Assembly (NCBI GenBank): GCA_018056685.1
Contig: JAGPFC010000008.1
Location: 9,075-73,074 of the forward strand
Source of the DNA: Smithella sp.
Lineage (GTDB): Bacteria > Desulfobacterota > Syntrophia > Syntrophales > Smithellaceae
DNA: 64,000 bases
Direction: 5' to 3'
The position numbers and the translations under genes are program-made. The notes under the pieces were generated by a model that saw nothing but the letters and a program-made list of their open reading frames with translations, searched no databases and had not been told where the DNA came from. This document shows positions 17,042 through 52,751 of the stretch, one piece after another; position 1 is the stretch's first letter, and every line of letters begins with the position of its first letter.

Positions 17042-17623
17042 TTAAGCATCAATTCCCATTTGAAAAGCGGCTAAATTCATTTTAATCAGCTTTTCAGGGA
17101 AGGATTTCTTAATGATCTCCTGCCAGATGGACTTATCGATGTTCATGAGATTGGATAACGCGCCTAAAAGTACAACATTGGCCGTCTTGATATTGCCGGC
17201 TTTTTGAGCGAGTTCAGCAGCGTTGAAATGGATGACTTTCCTGTAATTATTCTTTAAAAAATCAATTGAATCGAGAGGATACGGAGCATCACCCATGTTG
17301 ACGGCCGGCGGATAAATTTCTTCAGTATTGACGATAACAGCAGCATCCTGCCGGAGAAATTTCAAATAACGCAAAGACTCCATTTTTTCAAATGAAACAA
17401 GCATTTGCACGCTGCCCGCCTCAGCGAGTGGCGAATAAACTTTCTTTCCATAGCGGACATGGCTTGTGACGCAGCCCCCGCGCTGGGCCATGCCGTGCAC
17501 TTCGCTTTTCTTGACATCAAAACCGGCTTCCATAATCACTTCACAGGTGATATCACTGGCCCGTAGAATACCCTGGCCCCCTACTCCGGCAAACAATATA
17601 CTTTTTACTTCATTTTCAGACAT
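17042..17623 (-). CDS. iorB: Indolepyruvate:ferredoxin oxidoreductase, beta subunit
   Basis: Small (gamma-type) subunit of the oxygen-sensitive 2-oxoacid:ferredoxin oxidoreductase family, 193 aa. It has the GVGGQGILRASDI motif near the N-terminus, KKSEVHGMAQRGG, and VVLLGAL, all typical of IorB. With IorA it converts arylpyruvates (from Trp, Phe, Tyr transamination) to aryl-acetyl-CoA and CO2, reducing ferredoxin. It starts 18 nt downstream of iorA. Confidence 0.93.
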   Translation of the reverse strand: MSENEVKSILFAGVGGQGILRASDITCEVIMEAGFDVKKSEVHGMAQRGGCVTSHVRYGKKVYSPLAEAGSVQMLVSFEKMESLRYLKFLRQDAAVIVNTEEIYPPAVNMGDAPYPLDSIDFLKNNYRKVIHFNAAELAQKAGNIKTANVVLLGALSNLMNIDKSIWQEIIKKSFPEKLIKMNLAAFQMGIDA

Positions 17624-17641
17624 TTAGCTTTATCCCTTTAA

Positions 17642-19405
17642 TTAACTTATAGCTCCGAATTTACAAACCTGCGCACATAAACCGCAACCGTTGCATAAAG
17701 ATTCATCAATGAAAGCAACCCCCTTTCTTCTGGAACCTTCCTTTGTCACACCTTTTTTCCACGAAATTGGCGGGCAGTTTAAATCAATGCAGGACCTGCA
17801 GCCTTCACATTTGCCAGTATCCACTTTCAGTGCCGGTTGAGGTTTTATATTACTGCGCTTGAACAGCGCACACGGTCTTTGAGAGATGATAACTGAAGGA
17901 CCGTCCTTGCCCAGTTCTTCCTTGATGGCACTTCTGGTCGCTTTCTGGTCCATAGGGTCAATAATCTTTATATTATCAATACCCAGAACGGAAACTAAAT
18001 CTTTTAGATTAACTTTTTTAGTTTCGGTTCCCATCAGGGTATAACCGGTTCCCGGATGCTCCTGCATGCCGGTCATGGCTGTGGTGCTGTTGTCCAGAAT
18101 GATGATTAAAGCATCACTTTGATTATAAGCCATATTTAAAAGAGACGTGATGCCCGAATGCAGAAAAGTAGAATCGCCGATGACACCGACCACCTTGCCT
18201 TTCCCTTTTTCTTTCATCGCCTTGCTCATACCGTGCGCCATACCGATACTGGCACCCATGCAGATACAGGAATGCAATCCTTCCAACGGCTTCATATACG
18301 AAAGCGTGTAACAGCCAATATCGCCGTGAACATATGCCTTTTGTTTTCTCAACGCATAAAACAAGCCGCGATGTGGACAACCGGGACAAAGATTCGGCGG
18401 ACGCGCGGCAAGACTTTCCTTGTAGGGTGAAAGCGCTCCCTGAAGGTTTTTTTTAATGGCGTTTTTGATAATACCGGGATCAAATTCATTGGTGTAGGGA
18501 AAAATTTCCTTGCCGATCACTCTGATTCCCAGAGCCTTGATCTGTTCTTCCAGATAGGGATCAAGTTCCTCAACAACATAAATCTTCTTTACTTTGGAGG
18601 CAAAATCAAGAATCATTTTTTCCGGCAAAGGATAAACCATTCCCAACTTCAGATATGAATAATCGGGGAACACGTCCTTCGCATAGTTATAAGGCATGCC
18701 CGCGGTAATGATGCCGATTTCAGGATCATTGATTTCCATTTTATTTTCCGGGAAAGTTTCCACAAATTCTTTCAGGGCGCGTTCGCGCTTTTCCACTTCC
18801 ACTCTTTGCGTGCGCGCGTTGATCGGTACCATCACATACTTTTCAGCATTATAGGTAAAACCGGTCTTATCTTCACATTGATCGGGATCTTCAAGATCGA
18901 CAACCGATTTGGAATGAGAAACACGTGTTGTGGAACGCAAGAACACAGGGGTGTCGAACTTTTTGCTGATGGCGAAGGCCAGCTTGATATATTTTTTTGC
19001 CTCGGCTGCGTCAGCCGGTTCCAGCATCGGAATTTTCGCGAACCGGGCGTAGTTTCGGTTGTCCTGTTCGTTTTGAGAGCTGTGCATCGAGGGATCGTCG
19101 GCGCTTATAATAACCAGCGCCCCGCTGATTCCCGTGTAACTGACAGTAAAGATCGGATCGGCGGCAACATTGACACCGACATGTTTCATCACTGCCAACG
19201 CCTTTTCGCCGGCCAGTGCAGCGCCAATCGCGACCTCGACGGCAACCTTTTCATTCGTTGACCATTCCGCGTAAACGCCTTCATATTTGCAGAAACGTTC
19301 CAGAATTTCCGTGCTGGGAGTTCCCGGATATGCCGCCGCAAATCTAACGCCCGCTTCATAGGCGCCGCGGGCGATAGCTTCGTTTCCTGACATTAAAACT
19401 TTCAA
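17642..19405 (-). CDS. iorA: Indolepyruvate:ferredoxin oxidoreductase, alpha subunit
   Basis: Large subunit of 587 aa. The N-terminal pyrimidine-binding domain starts MKVLMSGNEAIARGAYEAGV and includes AAYPGTPSTEI. The TPP-binding domain has CPGCPHRGLFYALR, GDIGCYTL and VIGDSTFLHSG. The C-terminal ferredoxin-like domain holds two Cys clusters, CEGCRSCIDLNCP and CNGCGLCAQVC. The enzyme implies anaerobic amino-acid metabolism and supplies aryl-CoA directly. Spacing to iorB is 18 nt. Confidence 0.95.
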   Translation of the reverse strand: MKVLMSGNEAIARGAYEAGVRFAAAYPGTPSTEILERFCKYEGVYAEWSTNEKVAVEVAIGAALAGEKALAVMKHVGVNVAADPIFTVSYTGISGALVIISADDPSMHSSQNEQDNRNYARFAKIPMLEPADAAEAKKYIKLAFAISKKFDTPVFLRSTTRVSHSKSVVDLEDPDQCEDKTGFTYNAEKYVMVPINARTQRVEVEKRERALKEFVETFPENKMEINDPEIGIITAGMPYNYAKDVFPDYSYLKLGMVYPLPEKMILDFASKVKKIYVVEELDPYLEEQIKALGIRVIGKEIFPYTNEFDPGIIKNAIKKNLQGALSPYKESLAARPPNLCPGCPHRGLFYALRKQKAYVHGDIGCYTLSYMKPLEGLHSCICMGASIGMAHGMSKAMKEKGKGKVVGVIGDSTFLHSGITSLLNMAYNQSDALIIILDNSTTAMTGMQEHPGTGYTLMGTETKKVNLKDLVSVLGIDNIKIIDPMDQKATRSAIKEELGKDGPSVIISQRPCALFKRSNIKPQPALKVDTGKCEGCRSCIDLNCPPISWKKGVTKEGSRRKGVAFIDESLCNGCGLCAQVCKFGAIS

Positions 19406-40205: not shown

Positions 40206-41459
40206 CTAATAAGCCCGCTGATCAACAATCAGCTTATCCTCCGATTTGATTTCACCGGCATTCAAATATTCGAGATTATTTATTCCCACCGTACAAATTT
40301 CACGAAATACTTTTTTGAAATTCTCCTCCCAGGAAACACTGCCGATATCCGGTGTTACTTTTTCGATCCGTAATTTCAGAACATCTTCATGACCGGTGCG
40401 GCTGACAACGGCCTGCAGGGGAAGATTATTGAATTTCGCCTGAAGCATTTTCAACTGACTGGGCGCTACAAAAAGGCCCCGGACTTTCACCGCATCTCCT
40501 ACCCTGCCCGCTATTCCCGCCAGACGATACGACGTACGTCCGCAGGGACAGGCTTCCGTAATCAGGCGCGACAAATCGCCCGTGCCGAAACGCAGCAAAA
40601 AGAAAATATTATTAAGCCGGGTTACCACAACTTCGCCCAGGTCTCCCTCAGGAACATTTTTCCCGGTTGCCGGATCAACGATTTCCACGATGGTTTCTTC
40701 GCAGATATGCCATCCTTTCTTCTCAGAGCACTCATAAGCCACATCGCCGACTTCCGTCGCGCCATACATCTGATAGGTATCAATGCCGTAATCATGCTCA
40801 AAACTCCGGCGCAAATCCGGCAGCAGCGGCTCCGCTGCAAAGCAGGCTTTCTTCACCCCAAAATCTTTTTTGAAATCAAAACCCATCTCCTTTGATTTCT
40901 CTATGATGGCCTTCAAAAAGCTGGGCGTACCCACATAAGAGGTGACTTTTAAATCATTGATTAACTGCACCTGAATCTGTGACGAAGACGCGCCGGAAGG
41001 AACCACTGTCGCTCCAACCGTGCGCAGGCCGTTATGAAACGTCAAACCGGCGGCGACCAGATGATACGAAAAGGCGCATAGTGCTATATCCTTTGGACCG
41101 ATACCCGCGGCAAAGAAAGCCCGTGCCCATAAATAATCGGTCTCGCAAAGATGCGGTTCATAAACCGGTCCGGGAGACGTAAAAATTCTGTCGATATGAA
41201 TGTCCGGATTTTCCAGCCCCGCATAAGGAGGATGCTGCTGTTCCATCTCTACCAATTTCTCTCTCGACGTAACCGGCAGGTTTTCCAGATTTTCCCTGGA
41301 TTTGATCCCGGCAGGATTGATACCGGCATCATCAAGCATTTTTTTCAGACGCGACGATTTCTCATAGCCCAGTTTCACCATCTCCACCAGCGCCTTATCC
41401 TGCTGATTTTTTCTTTTCCTCTTCCCCCACGATTCCTTTTTATCAAACAAGTTATTCAT
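40206..41459 (-). CDS. PaaK-like phenylacetate-CoA ligase family protein
   Basis: 417-aa adenylate-forming enzyme of the PaaK branch. Expected landmarks are LENLPVTSREKL, YQMYGATEVGD (motif A5), and GRVGDAVKVRGLFVAPSQ near the mobile C-terminal domain. The P-loop equivalent reads FTSPGPVYEP rather than TSGTTGxP, which is unusual. A CPCGRTS segment is typical of PaaK-like proteins. Probable role: ATP-dependent activation of an aryl or other carboxylic acid to CoA. It is downstream of the liv genes on the same strand, separated by a toxin-antitoxin pair. Confidence 0.85.
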   Translation of the reverse strand: MNNLFDKKESWGKRKRKNQQDKALVEMVKLGYEKSSRLKKMLDDAGINPAGIKSRENLENLPVTSREKLVEMEQQHPPYAGLENPDIHIDRIFTSPGPVYEPHLCETDYLWARAFFAAGIGPKDIALCAFSYHLVAAGLTFHNGLRTVGATVVPSGASSSQIQVQLINDLKVTSYVGTPSFLKAIIEKSKEMGFDFKKDFGVKKACFAAEPLLPDLRRSFEHDYGIDTYQMYGATEVGDVAYECSEKKGWHICEETIVEIVDPATGKNVPEGDLGEVVVTRLNNIFFLLRFGTGDLSRLITEACPCGRTSYRLAGIAGRVGDAVKVRGLFVAPSQLKMLQAKFNNLPLQAVVSRTGHEDVLKLRIEKVTPDIGSVSWEENFKKVFREICTVGINNLEYLNAGEIKSEDKLIVDQRAY

Positions 41460-41472
41460 ATATTCCTTTCGC

Positions 41473-41778
41473 TTAAGCTATCTGTGTCATAATATCTTCG
41501 ATTGGTAATATTTGTCTGCCATGCCTGATCGTCAAAATCGATATTTGCTTCTTTTCTATATGGTATATGATTCGGTAATTTCCGTAAATCAGGTCTCTGA
41601 AATGGTCATTCTTAATTTCAGAAACCACTCTGCCGATTTCAGGCGAAGATGACAAGCGCTTGACTTTTGAAAAGACGACATTGATCCATTTTACGACTGC
41701 TGCCGGTTTATTCTGCGCTATATAGTCGGCAATTTCCGAAGCACGCTCAACAGCCAATGGCGACCAGACAATTTTCAT
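41473..41778 (-). CDS. ParE/RelE-superfamily toxin
   Basis: 101-aa toxin. The N-terminus MKIVWSPLAVERASEIADYIA and the GNYRIIYHIEKKQISILTI strand, ending in RHGRQ, are typical of ParE-type toxins (gyrase poisons or mRNA interferases; the subgroup cannot be settled from sequence). Its start overlaps the antitoxin stop by 4 nt (ATGA), the usual coupling in such modules. It ends 13 nt before the ligase gene. Confidence 0.9.
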   Translation of the reverse strand: MKIVWSPLAVERASEIADYIAQNKPAAVVKWINVVFSKVKRLSSSPEIGRVVSEIKNDHFRDLIYGNYRIIYHIEKKQISILTIRHGRQILPIEDIMTQIA

Positions 41779-42056
41779 TTATGAACTCTTTTCAATACCG
41801 TATCTTTTGCATCCCGATGTGCAATTCCCTTCCCGCTGGAGATTTGATTCAGAGATGTCTGAACATCCGTTAAAAGCTCAATTTTCTCCTCCATGATTTC
41901 ATATTCAGAAGCATCCAACAAGACGGCAACTCCTTTTCCATTTTGGGTAATCACCACAGGCCTTTTTGTATCACGAACCTGTTTGATGCAGCCGGCTATG
42001 CCTGTCCTCACCTCGGACAATGGCTTGATATCCTGATCAATCCTTAATCTTTGCAT
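41775..42056 (-). CDS. Phd/YefM-family antitoxin
   Basis: 93-aa antitoxin. The DNA-binding N-domain has IKPLSEVRTGIAGCIKQV and RPVVITQNGKGVAVLLDASEY, the Phd/YefM fold. The C-terminal helix (about 55-93) should neutralise the toxin. It lies first in the pair, so antitoxin is translated ahead of toxin. Autorepression is likely through the dyad over the -10 box just upstream. Confidence 0.92.
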   Translation of the reverse strand: MQRLRIDQDIKPLSEVRTGIAGCIKQVRDTKRPVVITQNGKGVAVLLDASEYEIMEEKIELLTDVQTSLNQISSGKGIAHRDAKDTVLKRVHK

Positions 42057-42397: not shown

Positions 42398-43198
42398 TCA
42401 TAGCCAGCGTTTGCGGCGCCTGTACGATTTTACATCTTTGTAGGATTTGACTGCACCTGACGCGGACATGCCGAGGTAAAATTCCTTGATGTCCGGATTA
42501 TCGGATAATTCCTTGGATGTGCCTTCCATCATGATTTTGCCGTTCTCCATGACGTAGCCGTAATGGGCAACCTGCAGAGCCATGCGGGCGTTTTGTTCCA
42601 CCAGAATGATGGTCGCCTGCTGTTCTTCATTGATTTTTCTGATGATACGGAATATCTCCTGCACGACGAGCGGCGCCAGACCCAGTGAAGGTTCGTCTAA
42701 AAGCAAAAGCTGCGGATGCGCCATCAATGCCCGACCGATAACGAGCATCTGCAATTCACCACCGCTGCAGTATCCAGCCAGAGCTTTTCTCCTTTTGACC
42801 AGAGCTGGAAAATAATTGTAAACCATTTCCAGATCCTGCTTGTATGGTTTACCGAATCGGGTGGCCGTGCCGACACGCAGGTTTTCTTCAATGGTGAGAT
42901 ATTTAAAAGGCTGCCTGCCTTCCAGAACCTGAATAATGCCCTGACGGGTGATGAATTCAGGCGCCTGATTCTGGATATTGACGCCGTTGTAGATAATGGT
43001 TCCATCCGTAACTTCGCCGTTTTCCGGCTTCAAAAGACCTGAAATGGCTTTGAGGGTGGTTGTCTTTCCGGCACCGTTACTGCCCAGAAGCGACACGATA
43101 TGGCCTTTTTCGACACTTAAAGAAACGCCTTTCAATACCTGGATAACATCTGAATATACAACGGAAATGTTGTTTAATTGTAAAAGTATGTTTCCCAT
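42398..43198 (-). CDS. livF: Branched-chain-type ABC transporter ATPase LivF
   Basis: 266-aa ATP-binding subunit. Walker A is LLGSNGAGKTTTLKAI, the signature region is YCSGGELQMLVIGRALM, and Walker B is LLLLDEPSLGLAP. VLEGRQPFKYLTIEENL is typical of LivF. The C-terminus carries an extra basic tail (KSYKDVKSYRRRKRWL). It is separated from livM by a 162-nt gap containing several hairpins. Substrate may be an aromatic or other carboxylate rather than Leu/Ile/Val, given the acyl-CoA ligases in the cluster. Confidence 0.92.
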   Translation of the reverse strand: MGNILLQLNNISVVYSDVIQVLKGVSLSVEKGHIVSLLGSNGAGKTTTLKAISGLLKPENGEVTDGTIIYNGVNIQNQAPEFITRQGIIQVLEGRQPFKYLTIEENLRVGTATRFGKPYKQDLEMVYNYFPALVKRRKALAGYCSGGELQMLVIGRALMAHPQLLLLDEPSLGLAPLVVQEIFRIIRKINEEQQATIILVEQNARMALQVAHYGYVMENGKIMMEGTSKELSDNPDIKEFYLGMSASGAVKSYKDVKSYRRRKRWL

Positions 43199-43360: not shown

Positions 43361-44437
43361 CTAATACGAAAAAGGCCATAATCTAAAGCTTGAACGTATG
43401 ATTCGCCAGATTTCCGCCAGCCCTTTCGGTTCAATCAAGATAAATAAAACAATCGCCAAACCGAAAACAAATTCTCTGAGCGGCGCCATGTTTAAACCCC
43501 AATTGGCAATGGCGGGAACATTCATTAATAATCCTGTCACAAACCGCAGCAGCTCATTAAGCAGCGTGATGAAGGTCGCGCCGAAAATCGCGCCGGGAAT
43601 GTTGCCCATGCCGCCGATGATGACCATGGCGATGTATTCAACGGATAAGCCCAGATTAAAGGGTTCCGTCGTAATGCTGACCATGTAATAAGCCCATAGG
43701 GCTCCGGCAAACCCGGCGTAGAAAGAACTGATGCCGAAGGACAAAAGTTTGTATTTGAAAATGGGAATGCCCATGCCTTCAGCGGCGCGGTCGTTGTCAC
43801 GGATCGCAATAAAGGCCCGGCCGTATTTACTGCGGATAATGTTTACGGCAAACCAGGTCATGCAGACCAGGCTGATAAAAATCAGGAAGAAGAACATTCG
43901 ATCGCCTGATATCTGCCATCCCATAATTTCCGGCGACGGCAATGTAATGCCCATCGTCCCTTTGGTGAGACTCTCCCACTGAATCAAAACGTATTCAATG
44001 ATAAACTGACCGGCCAGTGTGGCAATGGTCAGATAAAGTCCTTTCAATCGCCCTGAAGGAATACCGAAAATCATACCGATCATGGCGGTAATGATACCGG
44101 CCGCGGGAATGGCCACATAAAATCCGACCCCCAGCCTTGTAGCCAGAATGGCCGCGGCGTAAGCTCCCACACCGAAGAACGCGCCGTGCCCCAGAGAAAT
44201 CTGTCCGGTGTAACCGATGAGTATATTCAGACCAATAGCCGCAATGGCCGCGATACCGATAGTGTTGACAATGTAAAGCAAATAAGAACTAAGCACAAAC
44301 GGTGCGACAAAGAAAAGCAAACCAAGGAATATGCCCATCCATAAGCGGCCGAAATCGGTTTCGAAAATATTCAGTTCCTGCTCGTAGGTTTCCCGGTAAT
44401 TGCCGCAGGGATGAAAAGATAATTTATCCAGTTTCAT
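43361..44437 (-). CDS. livM: Branched-chain-type ABC transporter permease LivM
   Basis: 358-aa inner-membrane permease with about nine hydrophobic segments. GLNILIGYTGQISLGHGAFFG and the EAA-like loop (AIRDNDRAAEGMGIP) are diagnostic for LivM. IGGMGNIPGAIFGA near the C-terminus is also conserved. The first ~35 residues are an unusual soluble extension (KLSFHPCGNYRETYEQELN). It follows livH by 7 nt. Confidence 0.94.
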   Translation of the reverse strand: MKLDKLSFHPCGNYRETYEQELNIFETDFGRLWMGIFLGLLFFVAPFVLSSYLLYIVNTIGIAAIAAIGLNILIGYTGQISLGHGAFFGVGAYAAAILATRLGVGFYVAIPAAGIITAMIGMIFGIPSGRLKGLYLTIATLAGQFIIEYVLIQWESLTKGTMGITLPSPEIMGWQISGDRMFFFLIFISLVCMTWFAVNIIRSKYGRAFIAIRDNDRAAEGMGIPIFKYKLLSFGISSFYAGFAGALWAYYMVSITTEPFNLGLSVEYIAMVIIGGMGNIPGAIFGATFITLLNELLRFVTGLLMNVPAIANWGLNMAPLREFVFGLAIVLFILIEPKGLAEIWRIIRSSFRLWPFSY

Positions 44438-44444
44438 TATATTT

Positions 44445-45323
44445 CTAAACCCTCTCTATTTCCACAAGGCCAAACAATCCGTAGGGCTTGACCATGAGAA
44501 TAAATACTAAAACGATATAGGGAACAACGTCGCGCAAGGACGGCGACAGATAACCACCGGTAAAGGTTTCCAGAAGACCGATGATAATGCCGCCGATAAT
44601 CGCCCCACCGATGCTGTCCAGGCCGCCCAGAATAACAACAGGGAAGACCTTCAGGCCTATTGAACTCAGGTCATGAACGTTGACGCCGTTGATAATCCCC
44701 AACACAATACCGCTCATGGCAGCCACCAGGGCGGCAATGGCCCAGGAGAGCGCGAATACTCTGCGCACATGAACGCCGAGTGACAGCGCCGCCTTCTGAT
44801 TGTCGGCCACCGAGCGCATGTAAATGCCCTGTGCTGATTTCTTGAAGAACAGTCCGAAAGCGACAAGAAAAAGGATGCTGATAATCAGCGTTGCCGTATA
44901 TACAGGCGCGACATAAACGGATCCGAACTGCATGCCCATGGTTTCCGGCAGAAATTCCGGATAGGTTTGCAGATTGCCGCCCCATACAAGAAGAATAAAG
45001 CCTTTAAACATGGCAGCCAGCCCCACCGTCAGCATGATCACGAAAATGAGTTTCTCGCCAATCAACGGGCGCAGGAAAAATCGCTCAATCAGGAATCCCA
45101 GCATAAAGCAGCCGACCATTGTCAGGACAAAGGCGATATAAACCGGCAGTTGCGCCCAAGTCACCAGAGAGAGAAAAAAGAAAGCACCCAGCGCGAGCAG
45201 TTCACCATGGGCGAAATTCAAAACGCTCGACGATTTGAAAATCATGACAAATCCCATCGCGGAAATGCCGTACAACAATCCTACGCAGACGCCGTTCACC
45301 AGTAATTGCAGAAAAAATTCCAT
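44445..45323 (-). CDS. livH: Branched-chain-type ABC transporter permease LivH
   Basis: 292-aa inner-membrane permease. VNGVCVGLLYGISAMGFVMI and FAHGELLALGAFF at the N-terminus and VILGGLDSIGGAIIGGIIIG near the C-terminus are LivH hallmarks; the EAA-like loop is SVADNQKAALSLGVHVRRV. It starts 11 nt after the acyl-CoA synthetase and overlaps nothing, so all are likely on one transcript. Confidence 0.94.
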   Translation of the reverse strand: MEFFLQLLVNGVCVGLLYGISAMGFVMIFKSSSVLNFAHGELLALGAFFFLSLVTWAQLPVYIAFVLTMVGCFMLGFLIERFFLRPLIGEKLIFVIMLTVGLAAMFKGFILLVWGGNLQTYPEFLPETMGMQFGSVYVAPVYTATLIISILFLVAFGLFFKKSAQGIYMRSVADNQKAALSLGVHVRRVFALSWAIAALVAAMSGIVLGIINGVNVHDLSSIGLKVFPVVILGGLDSIGGAIIGGIIIGLLETFTGGYLSPSLRDVVPYIVLVFILMVKPYGLFGLVEIERV

Positions 45324-45334
45324 TGATTATATCC

Positions 45335-47260
45335 TTAACTCACATTGATAATATTTATTTTTGTCTCGATCTCACCGATTCTGCCGTCGCGGTACTTGAC
45401 CTTGCCGGTCACCTCAACATCCTTCTGGTTGTTGTACATTGCCTCAATAATCTTCAGATACAGGCCGTAAACAAAACGCCGGCGTACCTTGCCCGTGCGG
45501 GTCAGCTCCTCGTCATCCGCGTCCAAAAGCTTATAGAGCAGAACAAACTTTTTAATTTTCATGACCTCGGGAAGTTGCTCATTAACCTGTCGAACTTCGT
45601 TTAAAATTAATTCTTCTACCGGTTGCTGCTGGGAGAGATCCATATACGTTGTATAAGGGATCATTCTGTCTTCGGCCCAGTTGCCGACATTGCCCATGTC
45701 AATATTGATCATGGCTGTAATGTAGGGACGGGCCTCACCGAACGTAACGGCTTCCTTGATATACGGGCTGAATTTAAGGCGCGTCTCGATGAAATCAGGA
45801 GAGAAGGCCTCACCGCTTTTGTTACGGATAATATCCTCCTTGCGCCCGATTATCAGCAGATGACCGTCGCTGTCGATGTATCCGGCATCACCGGTTTTCA
45901 GCCAGCCGTTTTCGAAAGCGTTCTGCGTGGATTCATAATCATTATGGTAACCGGAAAAATTGGCTTCCGATTTTACCAGCACTTCCTGATCTTCGGCAAT
46001 TTTGACTTCGCTCCGGGACATGGGCTTTCCGACGGTTTCCAGTTTAACTTCATTATCCGGCTGTATCTGAAAGATGCCGCATGATTCCGTCAGACCGTAA
46101 CATTGTTTTAAATTCAAACCGATGGCACGGAAAAAGTGAATGACATCCGGGCTGATGGGATGACCGCCAGTGAACGCGCTGCGGAAACGGGCGCATCCCA
46201 GACGATCCAGCAGCGGCCGGTAAACGACCACGGACATCATTTTATATAAAGCTTTTAATGACGCGGGAACGGGCTGTTTGTGTGATTGTTTTTCCACGAC
46301 GGATTTGCCGATTTTTTCGCCAAAATAAAACAGTTTCTTTTTCAACCAGCCGGCGTCGGATATTTTGACGCGAATACGGGAGGCCATGTCTTCCCAGAAG
46401 CGGGACGAGGTAATAATCATCGAAGGTCCAATCTCTCTGAAATCTTCCAGAACCGTTTCCGCCGTCTCCGGAAAATTCATGCACATGGCGCTGCCGAGGG
46501 CGACACCCATTCCCCACATCTGATCGACAATCCAGGCGGGAGGCGACATGGAAAGCCAGTTCTCTTCCGGTTCAATTTTTGTTTCCTCCACCCACTGTCC
46601 GGCCATCGTCATCAGATTGCGGTGCGATAACATGGCCAGTTTGGGAACACCGGTGGTTCCGGATGTCTGAATCATGACTGCGATATCATCAGGACGGCCC
46701 TTTTGGATTTCCTCTTCAATAAAACCGGGATGCTCTTCGATGTATTTCTCCCCCAGTTTTAAAAGGTCGGCATAACTGATCAGCCAGGAATCGTCCGCAT
46801 AGGACGTCATGCCGGTGGGATCGATATAAACAACCTTTTTGGTCTGCGGCAATTTTTCCTTAACTTCTATGAGTTTGTCCACCTGTTCCTGATCCTGAAC
46901 GACGACCACAGGTGAATGGATTCTTTTGATGGAGAAAGCCAGTTCATCGGCAATAGAGGAGGTAAAAAGATTAAGCGTTGTCGCGCCCAGAGCATGAGCG
47001 GCCAGCTCGGAAAAAAGCCATTCCGGATGATTATGAACAATCATGCAGATATTCTCGCCACGTTTGAGATTCAACGCGGCGAAACCGGCCGCCGTTGTCC
47101 TCACATAGCGGCCGTAATCCGCCCATGTGTATTTCTGCCAGATACCGTAGGCTTTCTCCCTGATGGCTGTTTTGGAATCACCGTACAAAGCGGCATTTTC
47201 CATCAAGACCTGCGGCAGTGTCATATTGTCTTTGCTACTTTGCTGTACTTCCTTGCTCAA
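45335..47260 (-). CDS. Long-chain acyl-CoA synthetase family protein (AMP-binding)
   Basis: 641-aa adenylate-forming ligase of the FAA1 type. The P-loop is TSGTTGVPK, motif A5 is QCYGLTESCG, and the C-terminal TGDAGYIDSDGHLLIIGRKED precedes the catalytic region near KVRRRFVYG. It activates a carboxylic acid to acyl-CoA with ATP; chain length or aromaticity cannot be told. Its place between livG and livH suggests uptake and immediate activation of the transported acid. Confidence 0.9.
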   Translation of the reverse strand: MSKEVQQSSKDNMTLPQVLMENAALYGDSKTAIREKAYGIWQKYTWADYGRYVRTTAAGFAALNLKRGENICMIVHNHPEWLFSELAAHALGATTLNLFTSSIADELAFSIKRIHSPVVVVQDQEQVDKLIEVKEKLPQTKKVVYIDPTGMTSYADDSWLISYADLLKLGEKYIEEHPGFIEEEIQKGRPDDIAVMIQTSGTTGVPKLAMLSHRNLMTMAGQWVEETKIEPEENWLSMSPPAWIVDQMWGMGVALGSAMCMNFPETAETVLEDFREIGPSMIITSSRFWEDMASRIRVKISDAGWLKKKLFYFGEKIGKSVVEKQSHKQPVPASLKALYKMMSVVVYRPLLDRLGCARFRSAFTGGHPISPDVIHFFRAIGLNLKQCYGLTESCGIFQIQPDNEVKLETVGKPMSRSEVKIAEDQEVLVKSEANFSGYHNDYESTQNAFENGWLKTGDAGYIDSDGHLLIIGRKEDIIRNKSGEAFSPDFIETRLKFSPYIKEAVTFGEARPYITAMINIDMGNVGNWAEDRMIPYTTYMDLSQQQPVEELILNEVRQVNEQLPEVMKIKKFVLLYKLLDADDEELTRTGKVRRRFVYGLYLKIIEAMYNNQKDVEVTGKVKYRDGRIGEIETKINIINVS

Positions 47261-47280: not shown

Positions 47281-48108
47281 TTATAAATCTTCCGCTTCAC
47301 CAAGGTACGCCTTGACCACTTCGGGATTTACGCTGATTTCCTCTGCGCTTCCTTCCCCCAGTTTCTCTCCGAAATTTAAAACCATGATGCGTTGTGAAAT
47401 ACTCATGACGATGGACATGTCATGTTCCACCAGAATCATGGTGAGTCCCCATTGCCTGTTCAACTCCAGAAGGAAGCGCACCATGTCTTCCTTTTCTTCC
47501 ATATTCATCCCGGCGAAGGGTTCGTCCAGAACCAGCAGTTTTGGTTCCAGAGCCAATGCCCGTCCCAGCTCGACTCTCTTTTGCATCCCGTAAGGCAGAG
47601 AGCCGACCGCCTGCTTTCGAATGGACTGCATTTCCAGAAAATCAATTATCTCTTCAAGAATCTGCCGGTGACGGATTTCCTCCTCCCGGACGGATTTGGA
47701 AAAAAGAAATGATTTTATGAAACTGTAATCACAGTGAATGTGCCTCGCCAGAGTCATGTTCGCCAGAACGGTCATCCCCGGAAAAAGCTCAATGTTCTGA
47801 AAAGTTCTGCCGATACCGACACCGACCAGTTCGTGGGTGTGCAAACTGGTAATATCTTTCCCGTTAAAAATGATTTTGCCTTTCTGAGCCCGGTAGAAAC
47901 CGGTAATGCAATTGAGGAGACTTGTCTTGCCCGCACCGTTTGGTCCGATAATTGCCATCAGCTCGCCGGTATGGACTTTCAGGTCAACATCTTTAACGGC
48001 AACGACGCCACCAAAATTCAAACGTAAACTTTGAATTTCCAGCTCAGCTTTTTTATCTTCTTCCCGCCGGTTAATCATGATCGACGGACGGCTGCGAAAA
48101 GCCTTCAT
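47281..48108 (-). CDS. livG: Branched-chain-type ABC transporter ATPase LivG
   Basis: 275-aa ATPase from ATG 48108. Walker A is IIGPNGAGKTSLLNCI, IGRTFQNIELFPGMTVLANM is the LivG-type Q-loop region, the signature is SLPYGMQKRVELGRALAL, and Walker B is LLVLDEPFAGMN. The start is chosen because GAGG lies 6-7 nt upstream; an open frame of 16 more codons runs into the livK terminator hairpin and is not likely translated. The hairpin lies just before this gene, so livG and the genes after it may be expressed at a lower level than livK. Confidence 0.93.
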   Translation of the reverse strand: MKAFRSRPSIMINRREEDKKAELEIQSLRLNFGGVVAVKDVDLKVHTGELMAIIGPNGAGKTSLLNCITGFYRAQKGKIIFNGKDITSLHTHELVGVGIGRTFQNIELFPGMTVLANMTLARHIHCDYSFIKSFLFSKSVREEEIRHRQILEEIIDFLEMQSIRKQAVGSLPYGMQKRVELGRALALEPKLLVLDEPFAGMNMEEKEDMVRFLLELNRQWGLTMILVEHDMSIVMSISQRIMVLNFGEKLGEGSAEEISVNPEVVKAYLGEAEDL

Positions 48109-48123
48109 TAAAACCTCTTTGAA

Positions 48124-48161
48124 AAAGGGTGTTGCCGGAAAAGTTTCCGGCAACACCCTTT
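48124..48161 (-). terminator. Perfect hairpin after livK
   Basis: An 18-bp perfect inverted repeat (AAAGGGTGTTGCCGGAAA and its complement) with a 2-nt centre, starting 12 nt after the livK stop. On the minus strand it is followed by TTTTTC. It should act as a partial terminator or 3' stabiliser so that binding protein is made in excess over the rest of the transporter. Confidence 0.85.
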
Positions 48162-48173
48162 ACGGATAACAAA

Positions 48174-49373
48174 TTATTTCTTGAGCAGTTTTATCTTGTC
48201 TTTACCGGGAACATAGAAATTGGTTAGAGGCACATATGTTCCGTCTTCCTTTACATTGACCATGCGGGCCGTGAACGATGCGCCGTGGTCATCTTTTGTG
48301 TAGGTAATTTTCGGCACCAATCCGCCGAAATCTTCATTTTTAAAAGATTCCAGGGCGGCATTGACTGTTTCCGGATTAATGTTCTTACTCTTTTCATAAG
48401 CACGGGCAAAGGCTCTTTCCATGATCATACCGATGACAACCCCTTCCCAGTAGGAAGCGTCAAATTTGCTGACTGTCTTATAACGTTTCCACATATCCTG
48501 CATGACAGCAATTCCCTTGGATTTGTCCGAAGGCAAACCACCGGGAAATTGAATGGTCAGGCGGTCTTTAATCAACCCCTTGCCCATCTTGAAGAAATCA
48601 GGATCCGTTGACGTCCAGGTTCCGAGAAATACCGGACTGTAATTGATACGATCGGCGCTTTTAAAAGCCGTGATGATCGCGGATGGGAGCATCTGCATGA
48701 ACACATACTCCGCACCGGCTTTCTGCAAGCGAAGAAGTTCCGTGTTGAGGTCAACGGTCTTCGGGGGGAATTCTTCCACGGCTACCAGATTGATGCCCAG
48801 CTGCTTCGCATACTCTTTACTCGGAGCATGAATGGAACGTCCATAAGCATTATTGTAAGTTAAAAGACCGACTTTGGGAGCGTCCTTACCTTTGTGAATG
48901 GCTTTGATGTATTCCAGGACGGCATGGCAATCCATTTTGTAACTACCGAATGGCAGGTACATATAATCCACCGGAGGCTCCAGAATTTCCCAGCTCGTGG
49001 AATAGTTAATTGTCGGTACTTTATATTTTTGAATGATAGGCTTTGCGGCCAACCCTTCCCCGGCGCCCCAGGTGGCAATCATATCCACTTTATCCTGTAA
49101 TACAAATTTGTTCACGGCTGCCTGAGCTTCCGGAACTTTGTAAGCCGTGTCGACGGTGATCATCTCTATTTTGTTTCCATAGACACCGCCTTTTACTTCG
49201 TTGACATATCTAAAATAATCTCTCTGACCTTTTTCATGAAACTGTCCCCAGGTTGATGCAGGCCCCGTCAGATTGATCGCGGCTCCGACCTTGATGGTCT
49301 TGGCTTGTAAACTGCCGACACCCGTCATCAGGAAAACAGCCGACAAAATTGCAATCAATATTCTCCTTTTCAT
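48174..49373 (-). CDS. livK: Periplasmic substrate-binding protein, LivK/ABC branched-chain type
   Basis: 399-aa periplasmic protein. MKRRILIAILSAVFLMTGVG followed by SLQA gives a cleavable signal peptide. The mature protein starts KTIKVGAAINLTGPASTWG, a periplasmic-binding-protein type I fold of the Leu/Ile/Val class. TYNNAYGRSIHAPSKEYAKQ and VIGMIMERAFARA are in the expected positions. Start ATG at 49373 has GGGGAGG about 8 nt upstream; a frame 30 codons longer lacks a signal peptide start. Related binding proteins take aromatic acids, so the ligand is open. It is the first gene of the transporter set. Confidence 0.92.
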   Translation of the reverse strand: MKRRILIAILSAVFLMTGVGSLQAKTIKVGAAINLTGPASTWGQFHEKGQRDYFRYVNEVKGGVYGNKIEMITVDTAYKVPEAQAAVNKFVLQDKVDMIATWGAGEGLAAKPIIQKYKVPTINYSTSWEILEPPVDYMYLPFGSYKMDCHAVLEYIKAIHKGKDAPKVGLLTYNNAYGRSIHAPSKEYAKQLGINLVAVEEFPPKTVDLNTELLRLQKAGAEYVFMQMLPSAIITAFKSADRINYSPVFLGTWTSTDPDFFKMGKGLIKDRLTIQFPGGLPSDKSKGIAVMQDMWKRYKTVSKFDASYWEGVVIGMIMERAFARAYEKSKNINPETVNAALESFKNEDFGGLVPKITYTKDDHGASFTARMVNVKEDGTYVPLTNFYVPGKDKIKLLKK

Positions 49374-49424
49374 ACTCCAAACCTCCCCTTCTTTCATTAA
49401 TTTTAATATCATGCCATAAATGGC

Positions 49425-49460
49425 AAAAAAAAACCGTGGGATATTTATCTGCCCACGGTT
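49425..49460 (-). terminator. Intrinsic terminator in the livK leader
   Basis: On the minus strand AACCGTGGG (49460-49452), an 11-nt loop, CCCACGGTT (49440-49432), then a run of T (49431-49425). It lies about 51 nt before the livK start and downstream of the promoter at 49592-49620. It is therefore in position to stop livK transcription in the leader. It could instead serve only the upstream two-component operon, whose stop is 222 nt earlier. Confidence 0.85.
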
Positions 49461-49479
49461 CATTTCCCTTTTTTAATGG

Positions 49480-49566
49480 TCATGAATCTATCAGGCAGAC
49501 CTTTAAGCCGATAAAGCTAAAAAAATAAAAATAGACTGCCTTTTTTAAAAAATTGTTTTTTAACAT
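49480..49566 (-). CDS. Putative Tyr/Phe-rich leader peptide of livK, 28 aa
   Basis: A short frame MLKNNFLKKAVYFYFFSFIG continuing LKVCLIDS, with AGAGG 7 nt before the ATG. Residues 12-18 are Y-F-Y-F-F-S-F, so six of seven codons are aromatic. It lies between a good promoter and an intrinsic terminator, the arrangement of an amino-acid attenuator. The local sequence is T-rich, so an aromatic run could arise by chance. Confidence 0.5.
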   Translation of the reverse strand: MLKNNFLKKAVYFYFFSFIGLKVCLIDS

Positions 49567-49591
49567 TTTACAACCTCTTCTTTGCTGAGGG

Positions 49592-49620
49592 ATATAAAGC
49601 AAATATGACTGAAATGTCAA
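49592..49620 (-). promoter_or_regulatory. Sigma-70 promoter upstream of the livK leader
   Basis: On the minus strand TTGACA (49620-49615), 17-nt spacer, TTATAT (49597-49592). It lies between the response-regulator stop (49682) and the leader ORF. The 308-nt stretch 49374-49681 thus holds promoter, leader ORF, terminator and a small dyad (TGCCATTTATGGCA, 49411-49424). Confidence 0.65.
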
Positions 49621-49681
49621 GAAAAAAGAAATATTTTACTGTATGAACATTTTATTCGTCACGACTCATCATCAAGATTAT

Positions 49682-51046
49682 TTACATCAATTCAATGCCC
49701 AGTTTATCGATGCGATGCCGCAGCGAATCAAATGATATTTTTAACAATTCCGCGGCTTTCTTTTTGGATCCTTTTGTTTTCTGCAAAGCCTTTTCAATCA
49801 GCATTTTTTCAATTTTGTCGAGCTCAGAATTTAGATCTATGCCGTTATCCGAAATCTCCATGTCAAATTTATGAGTACCGAATGTCAGGCTTTCCGGCAA
49901 GATAATATTGGAACTTTCCATGGCCACACCGCGCTCGATAATGTTTTGCAACTCGCGAATGTTGCCGGGGAAATCATAATTCATCAGTAACTCCATCGCG
50001 TAAGACGAAATATTCGTGATTTGTTTGCCGAACATTTTCGAATATTTTTCTATAAAACTATTGATCAGCAGGGGAATATCTTCCCTTCTTTCTCTTAACG
50101 GCGGAATGAAAACGGGAATGACATTCAAACGATAATAAAGATCTTCACGGAATTCCGCCTGCCTGACTTTCTCTTGCAGGTTTTTATTCGTCGCTGAAAT
50201 GATGCGCACGTCAACCTTGATGTCCTCAGCTCCGCCAATGCGACGAAATGTTTTTTCCTGAACAACTCTCAACAACTTGACCTGTAAAGAAGGTGATAAC
50301 TCGCCGATTTCATCCAGAAAAATGGTTCCGCCGCGCGCCATCTCAAAAAATCCCTGCCGGTCGGCGTACGCCCCGGTAAAAGAACCCTTCATGTAACCAA
50401 AAAGTTCACTTTCCAGAAGATTTTCCGGTATTCCGCCGCTGTTTATGGCGATAAAGGGCATTTTGGCGCGCGATGAATTTTCATGAATGGCTCTGGCGAC
50501 AAGTTCTTTGCCTGTCCCGCTTTCTCCCAGGATCAAAATATTGGCAGGTGTATTGGATACCTTTTTGATGGTATCAAATATCTTACGCATTTCCCGGTTT
50601 TTTCCAATCATGCCGCAAAACGAATTTTCTTCTTTGCTTTCTTTTGTGATTTCTTCCTTAAACGGATAATCTTTAATCAACCCTTTTTTAATGAGAGCAG
50701 ATCGCACAACTCTTTTAAGCTCTTCCTGCCAGTTTTCCCCTTTTTCCACATAATCATAAGCGCCTTCTTTCATGGCATTGATAGCCGTTTCTCCCGAGGC
50801 ATATGCTGTGATAAGAATGACAAGTGTATCCGGATTTTGGTCTTTAATGATCTTCAGAAACTCAATGCCGTTGATTTTGGGCATTTTTAAATCGGTGATG
50901 ACCAGATCAAAGACTTTTTTCCTGCATAACTCAATTGCTTTCAAGGGTTCTTCTTCGCTTGTGACATCATGTCCTTCTTTCTGCAACATGATTTCCATGA
51001 CTTCCCTCATGTTCGGATCATCATCAACCACCAAAATCTTTGCCAT
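49682..51046 (-). CDS. Sigma-54-dependent response regulator (PilR/NtrC class)
   Basis: 454-aa transcription activator. Receiver domain 1-120 with the phospho-acceptor in LVITDLKMPKING. AAA+ domain with Walker A GESGTGKELVARAIHE, the sigma-54 contact loop GAFTGA, and DEIGELSP. The Fis-type helix-turn-helix is at the C-terminus (KKKAAELLKISFDSLRHRID). ATG at 51046 is chosen because GGAGA lies 6 nt upstream and the receiver begins MAKILVVDDDP. It starts 19 nt after the partner kinase gene. The C-terminal sequence is PilR-like, but no pilin gene is adjacent. Confidence 0.94.
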   Translation of the reverse strand: MAKILVVDDDPNMREVMEIMLQKEGHDVTSEEEPLKAIELCRKKVFDLVITDLKMPKINGIEFLKIIKDQNPDTLVILITAYASGETAINAMKEGAYDYVEKGENWQEELKRVVRSALIKKGLIKDYPFKEEITKESKEENSFCGMIGKNREMRKIFDTIKKVSNTPANILILGESGTGKELVARAIHENSSRAKMPFIAINSGGIPENLLESELFGYMKGSFTGAYADRQGFFEMARGGTIFLDEIGELSPSLQVKLLRVVQEKTFRRIGGAEDIKVDVRIISATNKNLQEKVRQAEFREDLYYRLNVIPVFIPPLRERREDIPLLINSFIEKYSKMFGKQITNISSYAMELLMNYDFPGNIRELQNIIERGVAMESSNIILPESLTFGTHKFDMEISDNGIDLNSELDKIEKMLIEKALQKTKGSKKKAAELLKISFDSLRHRIDKLGIELM

Positions 51047-51065
51047 ATCTTCTCCCGCTCCCTCT

Positions 51066-52751
51066 TCAAGTCTTTCCTTTTTCTTCAACCCGCAGCCATA
51101 CCCGGCATGTCGTTCCCCGATCAATAACACTTTCTATGTTTATTTTTCCATTATATCCTTCAATGATGTGACTGACAATGGATAATCCCAAACCGGTGCC
51201 TTTTTCTTTTTTTGTGAAAAAAGGTTCAAATATTTTTTCGAAGTCTTCTTCTGCGATTCCGCATCCTGTATCTGAAATCATAATTTCAGTGTATTCATTT
51301 CCATCCTCCAGCAGGACTTTACGTGTTTCTATAGTTAAAACGCCGCCTTCCCCCATGGACTGAACGGCATTGAGTACCAGATTATGAATAATCTGCCGTA
51401 TCTGCTCTTTATTGGCAAAAGCACTGGCATCATTGGAAAAATTTTTTTTGATTTCTATTTTTTCATGCCAGTCTTTGTTGATCTTGACGCTCTCCAGAAT
51501 TTCTTCAATAATCCTGTTGATATCAACAGACTCCCGTTTAACCGGAACCGGCCTGGCCAACAAAAGAAAATCGCGGACGAACGTTTCGAGTTGATCTTTG
51601 CTGCGCAGGACAATATCCATTAATCGCCTGTTTGTTCCTTCCGGTTCCATTCCCTGTTTTAAAAGCTCAATGGAACCGGTGATGGCCGCCAGCGGATTTC
51701 TAACCTCATGTGCCCAGCCTGCCGCCATCTCACCAATCAAAGCCATATTCCTGGATTTTTCCAGATCCTTTTCCATCTGTTTTATTTTCGTTATATCCTG
51801 AAAGATTAAAATATTTCCGATGCGTTTTTCGTATTTTCCCTTCAGCGGAGAAACGGACAGGCCCAGATGAATCCTCTCCCGCGTATTACCCTTGATGGCC
51901 ATTTCAATTCGATTGTTCATTTGTTGATTAATCATCTCGTCTGTGATGAAAGGCAAAAACTCCGGAAATACATCGTCCAGTTTACGCCCCTGGACAGCAT
52001 CCCTGGAAAATCCTGTGATATCTTCAGCGGCATTGTTGAACGTTTTGATGATATTGTTCATATTAATCGTCATCACGCCGGTATAAACGGACTCGACAAT
52101 GCTGCGGAAAAGCCGATCCAACTGATTAAATTCTGATGCCTTCTCTTCCAGTAAGGACGCCGTCTTCTTTTCCTGCTCAACGATAAAACTGGCGAGAAAA
52201 GCCATAACGTAGAAAGACGTAATCCGAACCATCAGGTTGGTGAACGCATCCGCGAAATCATTTTTTTCATTATAGTGCACGGCGGAAAAAGAAGGCATCA
52301 AATTATAAGATTCAAGATTGAGAAAAAAACCATAAAATATACTGGCGATGGAAGCAACCAGCAACCCGCCCTTTCGGCCGGTAAAAATCGCAGAATAAAT
52401 GATGACCAATGTGTAAAAAAGGGAATAATCGATCTGCGTGTTACCGAACATGAATATCAGGAAAGTGATGGAAAGAATATCCACCGTGATCTGCAGGTAG
52501 ATATTGCGTTGATAATTTACCTTGAATTTGTAAAGAACAATATAAATAGCCGAAAACAGGTAAATGACGGCAACCATGAAATAAAAATAATTGATGGTGA
52601 TGAAGGATAAACTGAATAATTCTCTTTTGATATCGACAAAAACCGTAATGCCGAGGAAAATAGTTATAATGATAATTCTGGTAATGATCAGAATGAACGT
52701 CCGGCGCAAAATTTTTTCTTTTATCGAGTTATCCGTATGCGCTATAGTCAT
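51066..52751 (-). CDS. Membrane sensor histidine kinase (PilS/NtrB class)
   Basis: 561 aa. Residues about 20-185 form six hydrophobic segments, a PilS-like membrane sensor. A coiled linker and PAS domain (about 210-330, DRLFRSIVESVYTGVMTIN) precede the dimerisation domain with the phospho-acceptor His in HEVRNPLAAITGS, and the ATPase domain with NLVLNAVQSM, DTGCGI and GTGLGLSIVSHIIEG. It pairs with the downstream sigma-54 regulator. AGGA lies 6 nt before the ATG. Confidence 0.93.
   Translation of the reverse strand: MTIAHTDNSIKEKILRRTFILIITRIIIITIFLGITVFVDIKRELFSLSFITINYFYFMVAVIYLFSAIYIVLYKFKVNYQRNIYLQITVDILSITFLIFMFGNTQIDYSLFYTLVIIYSAIFTGRKGGLLVASIASIFYGFFLNLESYNLMPSFSAVHYNEKNDFADAFTNLMVRITSFYVMAFLASFIVEQEKKTASLLEEKASEFNQLDRLFRSIVESVYTGVMTINMNNIIKTFNNAAEDITGFSRDAVQGRKLDDVFPEFLPFITDEMINQQMNNRIEMAIKGNTRERIHLGLSVSPLKGKYEKRIGNILIFQDITKIKQMEKDLEKSRNMALIGEMAAGWAHEVRNPLAAITGSIELLKQGMEPEGTNRRLMDIVLRSKDQLETFVRDFLLLARPVPVKRESVDINRIIEEILESVKINKDWHEKIEIKKNFSNDASAFANKEQIRQIIHNLVLNAVQSMGEGGVLTIETRKVLLEDGNEYTEIMISDTGCGIAEEDFEKIFEPFFTKKEKGTGLGLSIVSHIIEGYNGKINIESVIDRGTTCRVWLRVEEKGKT

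Follow-up and report, generated by a model that had tools for sequence, protein, structure and literature searches.

The livK operon of a Smithella genome is very probably governed by a ribosome-mediated transcription attenuator of the trp/pheA type, in which the amino acid sensed would be phenylalanine. The leader lies within a 64,000-nucleotide stretch of contig JAGPFC010000008.1, which we refer to as the window. LIV-type binding-protein transporters are routinely annotated as importers of branched-chain amino acids. Here, the regulator itself would name the pathway, since a Phe-reading switch found across the order assigns the transporter to the supply of phenylalanine. The support for the attenuator is close to the most that sequence comparison can give.

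Leader elements upstream of livK

A sequence-only reading of positions 49374-49681 had placed a promoter, a ribosome site, a 28-codon frame with the residues Y-F-Y-F-F-S-F, and an intrinsic terminator before livK, and had likened this order to that of pheA. Read on the minus strand, all of these elements were found at those places, running from promoter through the 28-codon Phe/Tyr leader, the hairpins, and the terminator to livK. They are listed here together with the RNA arms:

49591-49620, minus strand: sigma-70-type promoter, with -35 TTGACA (49620-49615), -10 TATATC (49596-49591), and an 18-nt spacer (from sequence)
49574-49578, minus strand: leader-peptide ribosome-binding site AGAGG (from sequence)
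49480-49566, minus strand: leader peptide frame of 28 codons, MLKNNFLKKAVYFYFFSFIGLKVCLIDS, ATG at 49566, stop TGA (from sequence; the Phe-rich frame is kept in relatives' leaders)
49536-49541, minus strand: arm 1, AGGCAG, pairing with arm 2 (CTGCCT); the 1:2 hairpin has -12.5 kcal/mol
49513-49533, minus strand: control codons 12-18, TAT TTT TAT TTT TTT AGC TTT (Y F Y F F S F; from sequence)
49494-49501, minus strand: arm 2, GGTCTGCC, the 5' side of the antiterminator
49482-49486, minus strand: arm 2b, TTCAT, in the inner antiterminator helix and overlapping the end of the leader frame
49459-49463, minus strand: arm 3b, ATGAA, in the inner antiterminator helix and overlapping the foot of the terminator
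49447-49454, minus strand: arm 3, GGGCAGAT, pairing with arm 2 (antiterminator) or, via its 5' bases, with arm 4 (terminator)
49425-49460, minus strand: intrinsic terminator, stem AACCGTGGG/CCCACGGTT at 49460-49452/49440-49432, followed by T9 at 49433-49425

The ATG of livK is at 49373; a longer livK frame from 49463 in the open reading frame list is unlikely to mark the true start and overlaps the terminator. A response-regulator gene (49682-51130) sits upstream of the leader in the window. We also considered a sigma-54 promoter, given the sigma-54 activator gene upstream, but by eye there was no properly spaced -24/-12 pair, and the conserved element is the TTGAC -35 box.

A generic consensus scan of the window for promoters and terminators picked up neither leader element. 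When we instead searched for frames of 12-45 codons with at least six Phe or Tyr residues in eight codons and a terminator within 110 nt, the livK leader was the one site in the 64-kb window, and the same search returned 0 occurrences in 30 windows simulated with a first-order Markov model. The 109 nt from codon 17 onward had a folding z-score of -3.5, and an equally good fold was seen in 0 of 200 shuffles. As evidence, conservation far outweighs both the chance-frame search and the z-score.

The leader accompanies livK and its arms covary

Orthologues of livK were present in most of 60 relatives. A covariance model built from a 49-sequence alignment recovered the leader at 77 of 78 livK loci in Syntrophales and related genomes, a figure that measures presence and not independent discovery, since many of the 78 loci also belonged to the training set and the leaders had first been found by reading upstream DNA. 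The sole locus that the model missed (L126, titled Syntrophus aciditrophicus) carries a degenerate leader remnant. At one further locus (L045) the leader is kept at a distance of about 400 nt from livK. In searches across the class and the phylum, most Syntrophales, from many families, gave strong matches, as did some families outside the order, where the leader again lay 5' of livK (L166, L168-L170, L172). As a side observation, two Syntrophus-like lineages (L040 and L126) have a degenerate leader and an intact operon, a natural loss.

Comparison of these loci establishes the reading frame, hairpins that covary, a conserved succession of elements, and the operon behind them, and it bears out the likeness to pheA attenuators. 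In the aligned leaders of related genomes, the Phe codons are kept, and the terminator covaries: 97.3% of its cells were paired, and double-change cells numbered 28, compared to 7.6 in shuffles. Every aligned sequence has a T-run after the terminator. The TTGAC box was found 90-155 nt 5' of arm 2 in 80 of 80 distinct leaders and between the terminator and livK in 0 of 80, which argues against livK transcripts that start downstream of the terminator.

The first reading had not been able to identify a clear antiterminator, but one exists. Arm 2 (49501-49494) can pair with arm 3 (49454-49447), and an inner helix, TTCAT/ATGAA (49486-49482/49463-49459), can extend the pairing, so that the leader holds three mutually exclusive hairpins, 1:2, 2:3, and 3:4. 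The outer antiterminator helix was paired in 95% of cells and the inner helix in 70%. This alternative fold covaries, with 25 double-change cells against 11.4 in shuffled alignments, and the signal collapsed when the partner was slid. Arm 3, GGGCAGAT in the window, is GGGCAGACC in many relatives, and the inner helix becomes GGCTCA/TGAGCC, or further pairs, in other clades. At three loci (L125, L127, and L131), arms 2, 3, and 4 have been altered together, to GGTCTACC, GGGTAGACC, and TCTACCC, as a need for arm 3 to pair with both partners would predict.

For the helix of arm 1 with arm 2, the score was 16.6, compared to 11.3 with arm 1 shuffled and to 15.2 (maximum, 15.6) with arm 1 swapped among sequences. 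Six leaders (L122, L124, L125, L127, L130, and L131) have no clear arm 1, and in these the stop codon lies directly 5' of arm 2. Many relatives outside Smithella (L033, L035, L043, and others) have a second hairpin and T-run right behind the first terminator, GGCCGTGG...CCACGGCC; the window has only a small hairpin, TGCCATTTATGGCA, at that position (49411-49424).

Phenylalanine is the general signal

The leader in the window carries Tyr codons besides Phe, and the first reading had accordingly named a joint Phe/Tyr signal. Across leaders the Phe part stands, whereas the Tyr part is lineage specific. With the frame and start chosen in each case as those giving the most Phe and Tyr, so that some starts are approximate, the 80 distinct leaders contained 470 Phe codons (393 TTT and 77 TTC), 81 Tyr codons, and 1 Trp codon, averaging 5.9 Phe and 1.0 Tyr per leader. 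The codon at -7 relative to arm 2 is Phe in 70 of 76 aligned leaders, and the stop codon lies 22 nt past the start of arm 2 in 65 of the 80. In two leaders (L027 and L042) the register of the frame is shifted relative to arm 2 with the Phe run retained; because these shifted frames still cross Phe codons, the RNA arm and the reading frame are each conserved separately.

Outside the Smithella family, leaders read FFSFF or similar, with Tyr scarce or absent; in one clade they read SSSFFFFFG or SINFFFFD, and higher-GC clades retain the Phe codons, in part as TTC. Since divergent clades retain only the Phe codons, Phe is the general signal. Judged by this comparison, Tyr is mainly an addition made to it by the Smithellaceae.

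How the leader could switch transcription

In the mechanism that we propose, RNA polymerase would initiate shortly 5' of the leader ATG, and a ribosome would translate the leader. With ample Phe, the ribosome at the stop codon would cover arm 2, arm 3 would pair with arm 4, and transcription would stop at the terminator before livK. When Phe-tRNA is short (or, in Smithella, Tyr-tRNA too), the ribosome would stall on codons 12-18 and leave arm 2 exposed. Arm 2 would then pair with arm 3, the terminator would be pre-empted, and livK-livG-acyl-CoA ligase-livH-livM-livF(-paaK) would be transcribed.

We folded the leader with and without a ribosome on codons 12-18, a check that the first reading had put forward. 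With the polymerase just past arm 3 and the ribosome stalled at Phe18, the 2:3 helix had a probability of 0.998, and the antiterminator probability was >0.99 for a ribosome at either Phe13 or Phe18. With the ribosome at the stop codon, arm 2 was covered and the terminator had a probability of 0.996. Both the geometry of the control codons and the folding states are such that arm 2 stays free when the ribosome stalls and is covered once the ribosome has reached the stop. We infer ribosome stalling, a switch that acts in vivo, and an ON state at Phe-tRNA shortage. For the complete transcript at equilibrium, the terminator was preferred in every state, even with a stalled ribosome, and the switch must therefore be kinetic, decided during RNA synthesis. 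Equilibrium folding without a ribosome, before arm 4 is made, favored 2:3 over 1:2, and a simple equilibrium model thus lends no support to strong shut-off in the absence of translation.

In the trp and his attenuators, region 2 is left exposed by a ribosome that stalls on the control codons and masked by one that has reached the stop (PMC1183508). The livK leader would share this logic and the decision during RNA synthesis (PMC1183508), while its amino acid, host phylum, and target genes differ. It resembles the enterobacterial pheA attenuator (pheL) in its Phe-rich leader peptide, in arms that pair as 1:2, 2:3, and 3:4, and in the terminator before the structural gene. Unlike pheA, it controls a transporter and CoA-ligase operon and not prephenate dehydratase, its frame crosses arm 2 with the stop usually 22 nt after the start of that arm, and in Smithella its control codons include Tyr. 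Against the Rfam model for the Phe leader (RF01859), it scored 18.4 bits (E = 0.81), below the gathering threshold of 55. As a riboswitch or T-box it was rejected, since it had no Rfam 15 match at the gathering threshold, the only match in the window being a tRNA elsewhere. ABC-leaders and T-boxes have been described in Firmicutes (PMC2965389); the passages that describe them make no mention of phenylalanine or of Desulfo- or Deltaproteobacteria. As described there, ABC-leaders likewise place an ABC transporter operon behind a premature terminator; in the livK case the sensor would be a Phe leader peptide and the host one of the Desulfobacterota. Among the papers searched, we found no Phe attenuator on a transporter in this group, which is not proof of absence, and no Phe leader combined with an operon for a LIV-type transporter and CoA ligase.

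Aromatic amino acid leaders elsewhere in the genome and the phylum

In the genome that contains the window, the covariance model also picked up a Phe/Tyr/Trp leader, MDRKLIVNVNFYGYWFYTYFTSVCPSLRRTH (L191; G000:C6:67387-67504, minus strand), before DAHP synthase-aroB-pheA (aroF-aroB-pheA). Weak model matches in the same genome comprised a Leu/Val leader before ilvB, a Leu-rich leader before leuA, and a terminator that follows a TGGTGGTGG stretch before trpE, these genes being named by eye. Leaders with known targets match the amino acid of their own pathway, which is what makes the Phe leader of livK informative. Elsewhere in the Desulfobacterota, leaders with aromatic codons stand 5' of genes for ADH synthase, shikimate kinase, DAHP synthase, and an aminotransferase (the last two named by eye), and leader attenuation of aromatic synthesis appears to be widespread across the phylum. 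The individual leaders lie before ADH synthase at L171, L174-L176, L178, L180-L182, and L187, before shikimate kinase at L173, L177, and L179, and before the aminotransferase at L190.

Genes other than livK have Phe leaders as well. An AMP-forming acyl-CoA ligase has one at L193 and L196-L198, an ADP-forming-type acyl-CoA synthetase at L209/L230, and a sodium:solute symporter, with an AMP-binding ligase behind it, at L213/L233. A Tyr-rich leader (NYYGYYYY; L245-L250, L227-L229) precedes a second liv operon, which ends in a relative of phenylacetate-CoA ligase; it was present at 6 of the 28 livK2 loci with upstream DNA, the operon was read in three genomes, and in the window's genus no Tyr leader was found before livK2. 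Trp leaders with a terminator precede iorA-iorB and TRAP transporter genes in four genomes (G018, G049, G052, and G054), an arrangement that suggests salvage of indoleacetate under Trp control. Among 20 further upstream regions of iorA, a clear Trp leader with terminator was seen in only three, in addition to G049. These Trp leaders are L221, L291, L292, L293, and L295-L298, and a paaK-like gene lies alongside in G018, G049, and G052.

What the livK operon may supply

The operon runs in the order livK-livG-acyl-CoA ligase-livH-livM-livF, and a paaK-family gene adjoins it in many loci:

48174-49373, minus strand: livK-type periplasmic binding protein, 399 amino acids (Pfam PF13458; PDB relatives)
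47281-48156, minus strand: livG-type ABC ATPase (synteny)
45335-47260, minus strand: acyl-CoA ligase, 641 amino acids, AMP-binding, FadD11-like (synteny)
44445-45323, minus strand: livH-type permease (synteny)
43361-44437, minus strand: livM-type permease (synteny)
42398-43198, minus strand: livF-type ABC ATPase (synteny)
40206-41459, minus strand: phenylacetate-CoA-ligase-family gene (paaK-like), 417 amino acids (best NCBIfam and PDB matches are PaaK, below the curated cut-off)

Wherever a locus extended far enough, the acyl-CoA ligase was found between livG and livH. At some loci, livF is not followed by the paaK-like gene. A RelE-like gene and a small antitoxin-like gene (41473-42056, minus strand) lie between livF and paaK in the window and, by eye only, look inserted.

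LivK falls in the broad Pfam family PF13458. Against NF011933, the model for high-affinity branched-chain amino-acid binding proteins, it scored 50.2 bits, far under the curated cut-off of 477. By fold it matches binding proteins for amino acids and for aryl acids equally, and the nearest relative of known structure holds valine. An argument from the binding pocket of LivK (sequence and predicted structure, mean pLDDT 76) was dropped, as it matched both ligand classes alike. The paaK-like gene of the window scored 179.5 bits against TIGR02155 (PaaK), under the curated cut-off of 646, and the best solved relatives of its protein are phenylacetate-CoA ligases.

The first reading had tied the transporter to aromatic compounds rather than to Leu, Ile, or Val. 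From the livK leader alone this would not follow, but the Phe, Tyr, and Trp leaders taken together favor it: because such leaders precede CoA ligases, a symporter, liv-paaK, and iorAB-TRAP genes, salvage of arylacetates is favored over branched-chain transport. The regulation suggests a scavenging operon, one that would obtain an aromatic precursor (probably phenylacetate) or else Phe as such for protein synthesis. Judging from regulation and gene order, phenylacetate is the likely substrate. When Phe is short, an aryl acid, probably phenylacetate, would be imported and activated with CoA, and the activated acid would be converted to Phe by indolepyruvate:ferredoxin oxidoreductase (IOR) and a transaminase.

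We lean, by a little over an even chance, toward a broader account in which Syntrophales run tRNA-charging attenuators over arylacetate salvage. Phe leaders would control the uptake and activation of phenylacetate (liv-ACS-paaK, other CoA ligases, and the Na+ symporter). A second liv-paaK operon would be under Tyr leaders in some lineages. The uptake and reductive carboxylation of indoleacetate (iorAB and TRAP) would be under Trp leaders. Aryl acids taken from the community would be turned into aromatic amino acids on demand. In Methanococcus maripaludis, aryl acids feed a second route to the aromatic amino acids with an indolepyruvate oxidoreductase (cited in PMC4162585), and phenylacetate is converted to Phe in rumen cultures (PMC7356843). 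The aryl-acid substrates would be alike; the Syntrophales version is proposed from regulation and gene order. With Tyr and Trp leaders on sister operons, this may offer a testable account of how syntrophs, many of them uncultured, use the aromatic building blocks of their neighbors, and the leader model can help to work out what transporters and CoA ligases of unassigned function do in Desulfobacterota.

The main rival keeps the same attenuator and has the operon import Phe itself, with the CoA ligases serving something else. In its favor, systems of the LIV type transport amino acids, valine is bound in the nearest solved binding protein, and no logic is simpler than inducing the uptake of an amino acid when cells starve for it. 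The constant place of an acyl-CoA ligase between livG and livH, with paaK often behind, speaks against it, as do the Phe leaders before CoA ligases that have no adjoining amino-acid transporter, and we regard Phe import as the less probable of the two. It is unlikely that the operon is instead catabolic, taking up and degrading aromatic or fatty acids under a Phe leader that merely reports the general state of growth. Liv-ACS-paaK clusters do resemble catabolic clusters, and the hosts are generally known as syntrophic acid oxidizers; however, such an attenuator switches ON at Phe scarcity, which is a logic of supply, the same genome puts such leaders on biosynthetic operons, and a catabolic direction makes little sense for the iorAB genes that relatives place behind a Trp leader, under Trp shortage. 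It is highly improbable that the hairpin does no more than terminate the upstream response-regulator gene (49682-51130), with the short frame a by-product of a T-rich run in a low-GC genome, for the leader remains beside livK at loci with a different upstream gene, every leader has a TTGAC box before it, the hairpin arms covary, and higher-GC clades retain Phe codons, partly as TTC.

For the arylacetate route, we looked for IOR within the livK operon and did not find it there. Matches to the IOR alpha subunit occurred in all 60 relatives searched, of which only the 48 above the curated cut-off are firm, as control genomes also match below it. We saw no leader before the window's own iorA (17642-19405). 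The iorAB pair occupies 17042-19405 on the minus strand of the window, at a distance of about 30 kb from livK; many relatives likewise have both on one contig, some 20-60 kb apart.
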